Positions 13,122-17,616 of a DNA stretch of 64,000 nucleotides are shown piece after piece. A program made the position numbers and the translations under genes. Each line of letters begins with the position of its first letter. Positions within the stretch are counted from its first letter, which is position 1. The stretch covers positions 310,001 to 374,000 of the forward strand of contig NZ_JAUKPO010000002.1 in the NCBI RefSeq assembly GCF_030503435.1, read 5' to 3'. The notes below the pieces were generated by a model. That model saw only the letters and a list, made by a program, of their open reading frames with translations. It ran no database searches and had not been told where the DNA came from. This DNA is from Rhodocytophaga aerolata. GTDB lineage: Bacteria > Bacteroidota > Bacteroidia > Cytophagales > 172606-1.

Positions 13122-13484
13122 ATGGAAGAACTCACCAAAACGGAAGAGCGCATCATGCAAGCTCTCTGGAAATTAAAGAAAGCGTTTGTCAAAGATATTA
13201 TTGAGCATCTGCCGGATGATCCTAAACCTCCATATAATACTATTTCGTCTGTCGTACGTATCCTGGAGAAAAAAGGCTATGCAGGTTATACCGCTTATGG
13301 CAAAACGTATGAATACTTTCCGCTTATCAGTAAATCAGCCTATAAATCTTTTGCTGTAGAGAAATTGTTAGGCAACTATTTCGATAACTCAGCAGCCAGC
13401 CTTTTGTCGTTTATGATAAAGGAAGAAAAATTAAGTGCAGAAGAAATGAAAAAGCTAAAAAAAATCATTAACAAGAATCTGTAG
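13122..13484 (+). CDS. BlaI/MecI/CopY-family transcriptional repressor
   Basis: This is a 120-residue winged-helix repressor, started at the ATG of MEELTKTEERIMQALW rather than at an upstream TTG. The N-terminal half holds the DNA-binding helix (PPYNTISSVVRILEKKGY) and the C-terminal half the dimerising helices. In related operons the repressor is cleaved after a BlaR1/MecR1-type membrane protease senses its signal. No such M56-family sensor is present here, so it is either an orphan or controlled by a distant protein. A TTATCA-N10-TGATAA dyad lies at 13080-13101, 20 bases before the start, where an autoregulatory operator could be. Confidence 0.88.
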   Translation: MEELTKTEERIMQALWKLKKAFVKDIIEHLPDDPKPPYNTISSVVRILEKKGYAGYTAYGKTYEYFPLISKSAYKSFAVEKLLGNYFDNSAASLLSFMIKEEKLSAEEMKKLKKIINKNL

Positions 13485-13562: not shown

Positions 13563-14927
13563 CTATAGCACCGGAAGCATAACTGTTACCGTTGTCCCTA
13601 CATTTAAGGCAGAATCTATAGCTAAGTATCCTTTGTGCAGTTTAATGATTTTATCCGTTAACGATAATCCTAAGCCATGTCCCTTAACTTGTAAGGCATG
13701 ATCGGCCCGGTAAAATGGCTCCCGGATATGTTGTAAATCGTCCCTGGAAATACCAACGCCTTTGTCTTCCACTTTAATTTTTAAAAAGCCCGGCTCTTCA
13801 CCTAAAGTAACAGTAGTAAGTTGTCCGTTGGAAAATTTACAGGCATTCTCCATAATATTTCCCATAGCCGATTTCAGCAAAGCTTCGCTGCCTACTATGG
13901 TTAGCTTTTCTTCATCATCAGTAGGTATGTTATATTCAAAAGCAATCCGGTAGCTATCTTTAGTTTCGGTTAATTCCTCAATGGTACTTAGCAGCAGTTC
14001 ATCTATGCGCAGGGGATTAATTACTATCTTTTTATTTTCAATATCCATCTGGGCCAGTTCCAGTAAGCCATTGTAGAGCTTACTTAAACTCTTTACGTCT
14101 TCTAATACGGACTGTAGTACTTTTTCATACTCTTCAACCCCTCTCTTTTTAAGTAAGGCTACTTCTATCTGGCTTGTTACAGATGTTAGCGGAGTACGTA
14201 ATTCGTGGGAAGCATTCGCTACAAAATTCTTTTGCATTGTAAAGGCTTCCTCCAGCCGCTCCAGCATTTTGTTAAAAGTTATAGAGAGATGGGCTATTTC
14301 ATCCTTTTGGTTTCCTTCATTTAAACGGGCATGCAGATTACTTGCTGAAATATTGTTTACATCCCGCACTACTTTTGCTATTGGCTCTAATGCCTGGTTA
14401 GCAAAAATCCATCCTGCCAGAATGGTGATTCCTATACTCAGCAAAAACACCAGGATTAGTACATACTGCAAGTTTCTTAACTTACTCAGCCCATAAATAT
14501 CTCTGGCCGAAGCAATCACTACATATCGTTTGTATTTTCCCGCATAGAGCATACCTACTACCTCTTTTGTTCCATCGGTGTAATATAACTCTGTCTCCAG
14601 CCTGATCTGGTTTAACAAGGCTACAGGTATGGAGTCGCCGGCTTCGTCCTTGCTGTTGTAAATTTCTTCGTTCAGGTAATTATAAATAATTACCTTTTCT
14701 TCTGGTAAGGCGGTGGTATTCTGATTAATAATTCTAAGCAATGTATTATCTATCTCGTCTACATCTACTAACAGTTTGGCTGAACTAATGGCTTTATCTT
14801 TTAGCCGCCTGTTAAATTCATTGCTCCGGTATTGGGCCGATGAGAAATACACCACCAGAGACGACATCAGCAGGATAGATGCCACGATAAGGGCAAACTT
14901 TATGGCTAGTTTTATCTTTATATTCAT
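13563..14927 (-). CDS. Two-component sensor histidine kinase (HAMP, HisKA, HATPase)
   Basis: This 454-residue inner-membrane kinase has a first helix at about 9-29, a periplasmic sensor domain at about 30-150, a second helix at about 154-176, HAMP at about 177-230, and phospho-acceptor H241 in ANASHELRTPLTS. The ATPase domain shows the N-box (NACKFSN), DKGVGI and GHGLGLSL. It starts two bases after the response regulator ends, so the pair form one operon with the regulator first. The architecture matches the OmpR-type systems that sense envelope conditions or metals. The sensor domain is not a family I recognise. Confidence 0.93.
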   Translation of the reverse strand: MNIKIKLAIKFALIVASILLMSSLVVYFSSAQYRSNEFNRRLKDKAISSAKLLVDVDEIDNTLLRIINQNTTALPEEKVIIYNYLNEEIYNSKDEAGDSIPVALLNQIRLETELYYTDGTKEVVGMLYAGKYKRYVVIASARDIYGLSKLRNLQYVLILVFLLSIGITILAGWIFANQALEPIAKVVRDVNNISASNLHARLNEGNQKDEIAHLSITFNKMLERLEEAFTMQKNFVANASHELRTPLTSVTSQIEVALLKKRGVEEYEKVLQSVLEDVKSLSKLYNGLLELAQMDIENKKIVINPLRIDELLLSTIEELTETKDSYRIAFEYNIPTDDEEKLTIVGSEALLKSAMGNIMENACKFSNGQLTTVTLGEEPGFLKIKVEDKGVGISRDDLQHIREPFYRADHALQVKGHGLGLSLTDKIIKLHKGYLAIDSALNVGTTVTVMLPVL

Positions 14928-14929
14928 AT

Positions 14930-15619
14930 CTATTCTCCTTCCTTCATAATGTAGCCCATACCTATATGAGTATGGATTAATTTGGGAGAATAGTTTTTAT
15001 CAATTTTCTTCCGGAGGAAGTTTACATATACTTCAATTACGTTGGTACCGGTATCGAATGTGTGGTTCCAGAGTTTTTCGGCCAGATCCACTTTTGAGAT
15101 AATTCTGCCTTTGTTCCGTAAAAAGTACTCTAACAACTGAAATTCTTTGGCAGTTAAATTGATTATTTCGCTGCCCCTGGTGACAATTTTTGTTTCTAGA
15201 TTTACTTCCAGATCTGCAATTTTTAATACACTTACGTCACCAGAAACAGGTTGGTTTGCTCTTTTTAATAAAGCCCGCAACCGTAGAAGGAGCTCTTTAA
15301 ACTCAAAGGGCTTCACCAGATAATCATCGGCTCCGGCATCAAAACCTGTTTCTTTATTTTGAAGAGAACCTAATGCCGTCAGCATAAGAATAGGCACTTT
15401 TGCATTAGTAGTCCGTATTGCTTTGCAAACGTCAAACCCATTCATTTTGGGCAGGTTTATATCTAAAATAATCGCATGATACTTATTAGAAAGAGCCATT
15501 GTTTTTCCTATAACCCCGTCGAAAGCCACTTCAGCCGTATAATAATTATCTTCCAAGCCTCTTTTAATAGATCCGGCTACTTTGGTTTCATCTTCTATAA
15601 TTAATATCGAGGAGTGCAT
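14930..15619 (-). CDS. OmpR/PhoB-family response regulator
   Basis: This 229-residue regulator has a receiver domain (1-115; acidic pair E9/D10, phospho-acceptor D53 in ILDINLP, K103 in VKPFEF) and a winged-helix DNA-binding domain (about 130-228) with the expected LTAKEFQLLEYF and GTNVIEVYVNFLRKKI blocks. It is the first gene of the unit with the kinase. Its upstream region is shared with the divergent coiled-coil gene and contains six 11-bp-spaced TTTTAAG-type repeats. OmpR-family proteins bind such direct repeats as head-to-tail dimers, so these are the likely binding sites; that link is inference. Confidence 0.95.
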   Translation of the reverse strand: MHSSILIIEDETKVAGSIKRGLEDNYYTAEVAFDGVIGKTMALSNKYHAIILDINLPKMNGFDVCKAIRTTNAKVPILMLTALGSLQNKETGFDAGADDYLVKPFEFKELLLRLRALLKRANQPVSGDVSVLKIADLEVNLETKIVTRGSEIINLTAKEFQLLEYFLRNKGRIISKVDLAEKLWNHTFDTGTNVIEVYVNFLRKKIDKNYSPKLIHTHIGMGYIMKEGE

Positions 15620-15712: not shown

Positions 15713-15774
15713 TTTTAAGCTCATTTTAAGGTGCTTTTAAGGCATTTTTAACGTGAGTTTAAGTCCGTTTTAAG
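15713..15774 (+). promoter_or_regulatory. Six TTTTAAG-type heptamers at exact 11-bp spacing (probable response-regulator sites)
   Basis: Heptamers start at 15713, 15724, 15735, 15746, 15757 and 15768. Four are TTTTAAG; the fourth is TTTTAAC and the fifth GTTTAAG. The four-base spacers are unrelated to one another, so the pattern is a set of binding sites and not a duplicated sequence. An 11-bp period places every site on the same face of the helix. The half-site resembles the PmrA/BasR box (YTTAAK-N5-YTTAAK), an OmpR-family target. The last site ends 10 bp before a TAnnTTTG element. Confidence 0.8.
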
Positions 15775-15784
15775 GAGAGGTGTA

Positions 15785-15792
15785 TAGTTTTG
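15785..15792 (+). promoter_or_regulatory. Bacteroidota -7 promoter element for the coiled-coil gene
   Basis: TAGTTTTG matches the Bacteroidota primary sigma -7 consensus TAnnTTTG at all fixed positions, 34 bases before the ATG at 15827. The -33 region coincides with the last one or two regulator repeats, and no clear TTG stands at the ideal distance. This is the arrangement expected of a promoter that depends on an activator. Confidence 0.65.
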
Positions 15793-15826
15793 CTGTATCT
15801 AACATATAACCCCAGCGCATACAACT

Positions 15827-16714
15827 ATGAACGTATCCAACACAAACAAAGTAATTGCAAGTATTATTGCAGCCGTCATGCTTGCTCTGCTCATGACTAC
15901 TTTTATCACTGTGAATAAAAATTCACAGCTTAAAGAAAAGGCTAATCAGGAAAGAATACAGTCTGAAAAGCTTTTATCTGAAAAACTATTATTAACTAAA
16001 CAAATTGAAGATTTCCGGAAAGAAATTTCGTCGTTAAAAGGAATAAATAAAGAAACAGATTTGCTCCTGGAAAAAGCCAACAGAAACCTGAATGAAAAAG
16101 AAGCCACTATCAATAAATTGTCGAAAGACGCATCGGATGCTAAACAGGTAAAGGCTCAACTGGCAGATGTAAAAAAAATCCGGGAGAATTTATTAGCTGA
16201 ATTAAAAAAAATAAATACCGACAACACGGAGCTGAAAGCTTCTAATGCTGAGCTGCAGGGAAAAAATGATGAGCTAAAGAAAGCCTATGATAATTTGCTA
16301 GCAGAAAACAATACGTTAGCTCATCAGCTCAGAGAAAAATCATTTACCGGTACTAATTTCAAAATTGAAGTAATTAAAGGCAAAAAGGATAAACTCACTG
16401 TAAAAGCCAAAAAAACAGATAAAATCCGGATTGAATTTGAAGTAGCTGCCAACACCTATCCCATTGACCCTACCTTTATACATGTGGATTTGCTTTCTCC
16501 GGAAAAAACCATTTCTGCAGGCGAAACAGATGTTAAGGTAGAAAACCAGGCACCGCTTTCAGCTAGTTTAGATAAAAATGTATCTAACGAAACTCCACAA
16601 AAAATTATTATTGAATACACTCCCAAAGAGAAGATGAACCTGGGCAGTTATACGGCTATTGTGTTCCATAAAAATACCTTCTTAGGTAAAGCACAGTTCC
16701 GGTTAATGAAATAA
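15827..16714 (+). CDS. Membrane-anchored coiled-coil protein with C-terminal beta domain, likely two-component target
   Basis: I do not recognise a named family. The 295-residue protein has one membrane helix (about 9-28), a long charged coiled coil (about 32-170, rich in Lys, Glu, Asn and Leu), and a C-terminal beta-rich domain (about 175-295) ending in a strand-turn-strand pattern with KAQFRLMK. The layout suggests an inner-membrane anchor with a periplasmic rod carrying a small Ig-like domain, possibly spanning toward the cell wall or outer membrane. It is divergent from the response regulator and sits behind the regulator repeat array, so it is the best candidate for that system's main output. 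A rho-independent terminator follows. Confidence 0.8.
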   Translation: MNVSNTNKVIASIIAAVMLALLMTTFITVNKNSQLKEKANQERIQSEKLLSEKLLLTKQIEDFRKEISSLKGINKETDLLLEKANRNLNEKEATINKLSKDASDAKQVKAQLADVKKIRENLLAELKKINTDNTELKASNAELQGKNDELKKAYDNLLAENNTLAHQLREKSFTGTNFKIEVIKGKKDKLTVKAKKTDKIRIEFEVAANTYPIDPTFIHVDLLSPEKTISAGETDVKVENQAPLSASLDKNVSNETPQKIIIEYTPKEKMNLGSYTAIVFHKNTFLGKAQFRLMK

Positions 16715-16938: not shown

Positions 16939-17616
16939 ATGGTCCATGTAAATAAATATATTGTTTTTATAGTTACCAGCATCTGGTACATAGCTGCCTG
17001 TGATGACACCAGCCAGCGGGGAATAGATAGCCAGGAAGTAAAACAGGAGATCAGAAACCGGGAAATTAAATACGTTACTCAGCCTCAGATTATCGATGCT
17101 GCTTTCAAAAGAGGGAGCCAGATTACAGATACTTTGCAGCAAGCCCTCACGCGGCAAATGCAAAAAGCCGTAGCGGAAAAAAGTCTGACAGAAGCGGCCG
17201 CTTATTGTAAGTTAGAGCAACTGGAAGCCTATAAGCAACTGCAGGAAAAACATACAGCGAGTATTAAAAGAGTACGGTTAAAAGCCCCAAAAGCCGATTT
17301 ACTGTTGAATGAAATGGAGAAACAATTACTGGACGCTTACCAGTATAATCAGGAGAACAAACTACCTTTAGAGAATAATGTACAGAAATCAGGAGCAGAA
17401 GAAATGCTTTTTACAGCACCCATTCTGGTCAGCAATACTGTATGTTTGAAATGCCATGGCAAAGTCGGAACAGACCTCAGTGGGGAAGAATATCAAACCT
17501 TACAAGCAACCTATCGCATGGATTCACTGGTCAATTACTCCCTTAATCAGCCAATAGCCATATGGAGTATCCTCTTCCCGAGGAAAGGACTTATCAAAAG
17601 TATACAGGCTGAGTAG
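16939..17616 (+). CDS. Tll0287-like c-type haem-binding lipoprotein
   Basis: This 225-residue protein has a lipoprotein signal (IAAC, C21 as lipidation site), a helical central region and one haem-binding motif CLKCH (C169, C172, H173) near the C-terminus. The order and the motif GxEExLF...CLxCHG fit the Tll0287-like domain (formerly DUF3365), a haem-binding PAS-like sensor fold usually found at the periplasmic end of signalling proteins. Here it stands alone as a lipoprotein without a kinase domain, so it may carry electrons or feed a haem-based redox or gas signal to a separate partner. The neighbouring two-component system is a tempting but unproven partner. Confidence 0.82.
   Translation: MVHVNKYIVFIVTSIWYIAACDDTSQRGIDSQEVKQEIRNREIKYVTQPQIIDAAFKRGSQITDTLQQALTRQMQKAVAEKSLTEAAAYCKLEQLEAYKQLQEKHTASIKRVRLKAPKADLLLNEMEKQLLDAYQYNQENKLPLENNVQKSGAEEMLFTAPILVSNTVCLKCHGKVGTDLSGEEYQTLQATYRMDSLVNYSLNQPIAIWSILFPRKGLIKSIQAE

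Follow-up and report, generated by a model that had tools for sequence, protein, structure and literature searches.

To our knowledge, few response regulators of the Bacteroidota have a known operator. CiaR is an OmpR-type regulator. Compared by site alone, its site in streptococci, TTTAAG-N5-TTTAAG (PMC9603419), has the same hexamer and the same 11-bp head-to-tail spacing as the array described here, but it consists, as stated in that source, of two copies instead of six, and it belongs to a Gram-positive promoter and to other genes. In E. coli, 92 of 158 ArcA sites carry three to five direct repeats at 11 bp, ArcA directly represses 74 operons, its occupancy rises over a narrow range, and footprints suggest cooperative binding (PMC3798270). 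ArcA sites thus resemble our array in their direct repeats, 11-bp period, and multi-repeat layout, whereas their half-site is different and their architecture is variable, the sites considered here usually counting four to six units and keeping a constant distance to a -7 box. PmrA/BasR half-sites, which read CTTAAT, CCTAAG, or TTTAAG and also stand head to tail, come in pairs (PMC3973317), and the PHO box of PhoB is likewise built of 11-nt direct repeat units (PMC4415409), but with CTGTCAT repeats. Within the Bacteroidota, the PhoP motif of Riemerella, TTTAACA (PMC9603813), belongs to a two-component regulator and has a TTTAA core; this is a different regulator by name, however, and the accessible part of that account describes neither a fixed multi-unit array nor a -7 spacing. 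In the open-access literature, which leaves most subscription papers outside, we recognized no description in Bacteroidota of an array with such spacing or of the residue match reported below.

The window, which is the whole 64-kb stretch of DNA analyzed, contains the following features:

13563..14927, minus strand, sensor histidine kinase (HAMP, HisKA, and HATPase_c), predicted partner of the regulator, from Pfam and NCBIfam
14930..15619, minus strand, OmpR/PhoB-type response regulator with F at residue 201, predicted binder, from Pfam domains, NCBIfam, and alignment
15713..15719, plus strand, half-site 1, TTTTAAG, read from the sequence and conserved in two relatives
15724..15730, plus strand, half-site 2, TTTTAAG, read from the sequence and conserved in two relatives
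15735..15741, plus strand, half-site 3, TTTTAAG, read from the sequence and conserved in two relatives
15746..15752, plus strand, half-site 4, TTTTAAC, read from the sequence and conserved in two relatives
15757..15763, plus strand, half-site 5, GTTTAAG, read from the sequence and conserved in two relatives
15768..15774, plus strand, half-site 6, TTTTAAG, its TTTAA starting 20 bp ahead of TTTG
15785..15792, plus strand, -7 box TAGTTTTG (= TAnnTTTG), read from the sequence
15827..16714, plus strand, coiled-coil protein of 295 aa, predicted target, from the ORF, domain search, alignment, and AlphaFold model

An earlier note on this DNA had claimed six TTTTAAG sites with an 11-bp period and differing spacers, followed by a 10-bp gap to a TAnnTTTG element and a 34-base leader. 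This description holds, with the caveat that the heptamer is exact in four of the six units, the other two differing by one base (one ends with C, one begins with G), and that the sequence common to all six is the TTTAA core, repeated in steps of exactly 11 bp. The spacers are, in order, CTCA, GTGC, GCAT, GTGA, and TCCG. From the end of the array at 15774, 10 bp lead to TAGTTTTG, and the coiled-coil gene lies 52 bp past the array, its ATG at 15827 being 34 bases past the -7 box. The locus shows both the head-to-tail half-sites about 11 bp apart that mark operators of OmpR/PhoB-type regulators (six units, exactly 11 bp) and, at 15785-15792, the TAnnTTTG -7 box that marks a Bacteroidota sigma-A promoter; the sequence of the coiled-coil promoter contains no TTG near the -33 position.

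That the array is a chance AT-rich repeat or a slipped-strand tandem duplication without function is extremely improbable. Some 11-bp arrays are indeed plain tandem duplications, such as the tandem run of six perfect TTTAAGGGACA copies, with identical spacers, at the end of a contig (L150:7035-7100); the spacers of the window array, in contrast, vary within the array and mostly between species too, while the cores stay. Moreover, 100 dinucleotide shuffles of the 64-kb window fall far short of the array, both in the number of exact TTTAA cores in a row at period 11 (six in the window versus at most two) and in the best score for four units plus TTTG (40.4 versus 20.0). Three exact TTTTAAG at 11 bp occur in the 9.07-Mb genome at the window array only (control, 0), and the window holds no second array, the best score besides registers of the main array being below 12. 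An initial assumption that this locus alone has such an array was dropped, since the four-unit core pattern matches elsewhere in the same genome: with up to two mismatches, it gave 13 matches versus 1 for the reversed control, overlapping matches inside one array being scored separately.

The coiled-coil protein is present in 8 of the 39 genomes searched, that of the window included. In a genome of the same genus (G001; 65% identity for the coiled-coil protein) and one of the same family (G006; 49% identity), the divergent layout of regulator-kinase pair and coiled-coil gene is kept together with a six-unit array, and an alignment of the three intergenic regions shows that the TTTAA cores of all six units are kept, with the spacers diverged at most positions. 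The locus of Runella aurantiaca (L196, identical in place to L064) has the three genes in tandem on one strand, in the order regulator, kinase, coiled-coil gene. Ahead of the coiled-coil gene is a degenerate four-unit array, CCTAAG, TCTAAT, GTTAAG, and CTTAAG in steps of 11 bp; TTTG begins 20 bp downstream of where the last unit starts, and the weighted-matrix score is 30.6. This array escaped the exact-core scans and was found by reading the sequence and by the weighted matrix. The check that the earlier note had named as able to refute its proposal, the absence of the array upstream of orthologous pairs, thus turned out in its favor in all three relatives. Around the distant coiled-coil homologs (L065-L070), a simple scan showed no arrays, and the frames listed there include no clade regulator (the clade is defined below); two of these loci, L066 and L068, have other two-component genes nearby. 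As a separate observation, six loci (L144, L145, L149, L191, L192, and L194) show a regulator-kinase pair, then an array, then a protein of 314-318 aa with a hydrophobic N-terminal segment and a long coiled coil; only the kinase of the pair was recognized in L149, and three of these proteins align with the coiled-coil protein of the window at 15-16%.

The regulator, 229 aa long, combines a receiver with a winged-helix Trans_reg_C domain (Pfam, 88.9 and 81.7 bits, above the cut-offs), the combination that characterizes OmpR/PhoB-type response regulators. The best-scoring NCBIfam families of the regulator and the kinase are those of heavy-metal regulators and sensors, at scores under the curated cut-offs: 223.4 bits against 279.2 for the CzcR/SilR/CopR family (TIGR01387) and 217.2 bits against 292.55 for the kinase family (TIGR01386). 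The regulator also falls below the cut-offs of the NCBIfam PhoB families, and it reaches 147.8 bits against a cut-off of 330 for the PmrA/BasR family. The resemblance to the PmrA/BasR box that the earlier note had pointed out stands as far as the half-sites are alike, but it is a likeness of sites alone, to which the CiaR site comes closer. As for the predicted target, it has a hydrophobic N-terminal segment and matched no Pfam family at an E value of 0.001. Its AlphaFold model, of modest confidence (mean pLDDT, 63), consists of a long helix that ends near residue 171 and a C-terminal beta domain (176-293); we infer that the product is an inner-membrane-anchored envelope protein. The AlphaFold models were too weak to assign a firm fold to the coiled-coil protein or to the kinase (mean pLDDT, 63 and 54), and the PDB matches of the coiled-coil model, all with E values above 0.001 and many of them immunoglobulin-like domains, were set aside as a functional clue.

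With loci picked by regulator similarity alone and a fixed matrix (four units plus TTTG; threshold, 20), sites scoring at least 20 were found in 26 of 53 loci of the regulator's clade, in 4 of 7 intermediate loci, and in none of 40 other OmpR-type loci (clade versus other loci, Fisher p 1e-8, relatedness ignored). The matrix had been set by hand after earlier arrays were seen, that of Runella among them, two stretches overlap with ones seen earlier (L234 with L064/L196, L247 with L091), and some of the 53 clade loci are near-copies of one another in sister species (L198/L199, L228/L229, and L232/L233). At the control periods of 9, 10, 12, and 13, no such site appeared in any of the 53 clade loci; among the control loci, period 10 gave 1 of 40. 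When the TTTG offset was moved to 19 or 21, 16 or 13 clade loci still scored at least 22, versus 23 at offset 20, a weak control because the repeats alone score high. The 20-bp spacing rests instead on 22 distinct perfect arrays of at least four units, from loci taken irrespective of TTTG. Counted from the first base of the final TTTAA, TTTG begins at exactly 20 bp in 15 of them and at 21 bp in 1, against a background of 0.7% per position; these arrays are not fully independent, several coming from one genus. A site scoring at least 20 is absent from the stretch taken at 27 of the 53 clade loci and at 28 of 40 class-level loci; some stretches stop at contig ends, and in G001 the stretch L197 narrowly misses the arrays.

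The full motif, with up to one mismatch, occurs in 15 of the 395 genomes of a phylum sample, including that of the window (24 matches versus 1 for the control), and with up to two mismatches in all four family members tested (control, 0). An order-wide search with three mismatches (67 of 291 genomes) was noisy, the controls matching also, and was used for choosing loci, not for counting. By unit threshold, the 89 sites scoring at least 22 in the sampled loci comprise 65 with four units, 4 with five, 5 with six, and 15 with three or fewer, counts that are biased to four by the many loci found through four-unit patterns. The earlier note had called the array unusually long; six does exceed the commonest count, but ArcA sites reach five (PMC3798270), so the term is only partly warranted. 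The first genes past the arrays include those of outer-membrane efflux proteins and of sulfate-permease-family (SulP) and DabA transporters, and ACR_tran pumps and Usp proteins lie further along in some loci.

Residue 201 in the recognition helix of the regulator goes with base 2 of the half-site. Among 52 regulator-array pairs, the 26 loci with F201 have 1 C in 104 base-2 cells, and the 17 with Y201 have 44 C in 68; any C at base 2 is thus found in 1 of 26 F201 loci and in 17 of 17 Y201 loci. The remaining nine pairs carry H, L, I, G, or A at 201 and 6 C in 36 cells. The F/Y table omits L146, whose regulator is outside the clade, and regulators without 'LR' in the aligned helix, L147 among them. 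Column 201 comes first of 153 alignment columns for base 2, with an adjusted R2 of 0.83 versus 0.28 for the next column and a highest permutation maximum of 0.38. Many F201 loci were selected through a TTTAA pattern, a bias towards T; in the 27 loci picked by regulator or as own paralogs, the window included and the near-copies L199, L229, L233, and L252 removed, F201 has 0 C of 16 cells (4 loci) and Y201 has 40 C of 60 (15 loci). In this subset, column 201 leads for base 2 (0.72 versus a highest permutation maximum of 0.61) and for base 1 too (0.73 versus 0.68), so the link may not be confined to base 2. F/Y at 201 changes 8 times on the tree, and the strongly supported branches hold three contrasts; over 200 pairings, base 2 moved the same way in 2.8 contrasts on average and never the opposite way, three independent contrasts being too few for p<0.05.

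A prediction fixed before 40 further loci were taken was correct in all 10 F/Y loci. Twelve of the 40 reached the threshold: seven with F201 and 0 C of 28 cells (three G or A), three with Y201, each with C, and two with L201, one of which has a single C. Period controls gave 1 of 40 at period 9 and 0 of 40 at periods 10, 12, and 13. The 40 were fetched from 58 regulator places, those left aside being four of the window's genome and four of G018 (both sampled before), four relatives of one genus (G714, G773, G718, and G777), and the end of the list (G776, G723, G770:C150, G302, G739, and G386). The 40 were meant to come from genomes new to the sampling; one of these genomes, G367, had been sampled earlier at another locus, and its new locus, L360, is uncounted, lying just under the threshold; L343, with no regulator frame recovered and a site shown as 20.0 yet under the threshold, was left out.

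The counterpart of residue 201 in E. coli PhoB is, by alignment, Arg201, which contacts a guanine in the PhoB-DNA structure, and PmrA differs in having Asn196 at this position, with no contact in the model of that paper (PMC3973317). On our reading of CTGTCAT, the PhoB guanine would be base 2 of the TGTCA repeat in the present register. A second link, between residue 196 and base 6, is only suggestive: the adjusted R2 is 0.38 for G, under columns 17, 176, and 39 and a permutation maximum of 0.45, and 0.33 for T, versus a permutation maximum of 0.31, and in the new sample G fills 7 of 20 base-6 cells in E196 loci and 2 of 28 in D196 loci.

Taken at the sequence level, the co-occurrence of arrays with the clade, the fixed -7 spacing, and the link between residue 201 and base 2 all support the adjacent regulator as the predicted binder. 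It is very unlikely that a paralogous regulator of the same clade reads the array in its place. The window's genome does hold four further clade regulators, all close paralogs, and several arrays without a neighboring regulator; the four paralogs, however, have Y201, and C stands at base 2 of the best sites in their vicinity, whereas each of the six units of the window array has T there. Of the clade members found in this genome, the adjacent regulator alone has F201, and the pair keeps its place in relatives.

We therefore consider it highly likely that the array is the operator of the 14930-15619 regulator and that it drives the coiled-coil gene, the promoter being activated by the heavy-metal-like two-component system next to it. 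The kinase would phosphorylate the regulator upon an envelope signal, and each TTTAAG would then take up one regulator molecule in head-to-tail order, the six probably forming three dimers on one helix face; the dimer count and cooperative loading are modeled on ArcA. The TAnnTTTG box occupies -12 to -5 in Flavobacterium (PMC9723704), which would place the transcription start near 15797. Such a start would put the last TTTAAG at roughly -28 to -23 and the fifth unit at roughly -39 to -34, such that bound regulator would cover the place of the missing -33 element and recruit RNA polymerase to the TAnnTTTG box. An activator sitting over an upstream promoter element is the geometry known for PhoB. 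The regulator could instead bind the array yet repress the coiled-coil gene, or chiefly control its own operon, given that the array sits between divergent genes and that autoregulation is common among two-component systems. We judge this unlikely: in many loci, the units point to a same-strand TTTG at a fixed 20 bp, and the regulator/coiled-coil intergenic region contains no TAnnTTTG facing the regulator gene.

The activated promoter that we favor is very probably one case of a control-site design that adjoins one group of Bacteroidota regulators and in which one residue of the regulator goes with one letter of the repeat. Elsewhere in the window's genome, on contig C136, two divergent four-unit TTTAAT arrays lie between a SulP-type gene and dabA (L055:7906-11975; G000 C136:57900-62000), with a third array near 7906-7939 of L055. 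Base 2 is T in each of the four units in the SulP/DabA arrays of C136 and in an array on C110, and we found no clade regulator near the C136 or C110 arrays of this genome; for the C136 locus, relatives do have one close by. G001 has its corresponding TTTAAT arrays (C1:5857728 and 5858040) between SulP and DabA genes, with an F201/D196 regulator some 6 kb away, and in each of G003 and G005 a SulP array adjoins such a regulator. Either the regulator of the window may have taken over the SulP/DabA targets, or a D196 regulator may be missing from the 202-contig assembly.

A wider proposal, which we offer tentatively and as slightly more doubtful than probable, is that an expanded Bacteroidota clade of heavy-metal-like regulators shares a single promoter design, in which an 11-bp-spaced series of four to six YTTAAK units ends 20 bp ahead of the -7 TTTG, that its paralogs are kept apart by F/Y201 reading T/C at base 2, perhaps with E/D196 favoring G/T at base 6, and that the sole F201 member found in the window's genome also runs the distant TTTAAT arrays at the SulP-type/DabA inorganic-carbon transporter genes. 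If true, the coiled-coil envelope protein would be tied to carbon uptake. A design recognizable by its repeat phase, fixed -7 distance, and one-residue/one-base match would make regulons readable from sequence in many genomes, would connect RND-type efflux, SulP/DabA transport, and coiled-coil envelope proteins with the clade, and would offer a natural series in which to test what keeps paralogous regulators from cross-talk.

Some further arrays and genes were noted in passing. In L183, L206, L212, and L220, arrays are followed by short proteins with a hydrophobic segment. Two near-identical TTTAAGTTTTT arrays (L146:6285 and 6916), with a TTTG offset of 32 instead of 20, stand beside a two-component pair outside the clade and probably belong to another system. 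In the window itself, a penicillinase-repressor gene of the BlaI/MecI type (13122-13484) adjoins the kinase gene and is convergent with it, and a Tll0287-like protein with a CxxCH heme-binding motif is encoded downstream of the coiled-coil gene (16939-17616).
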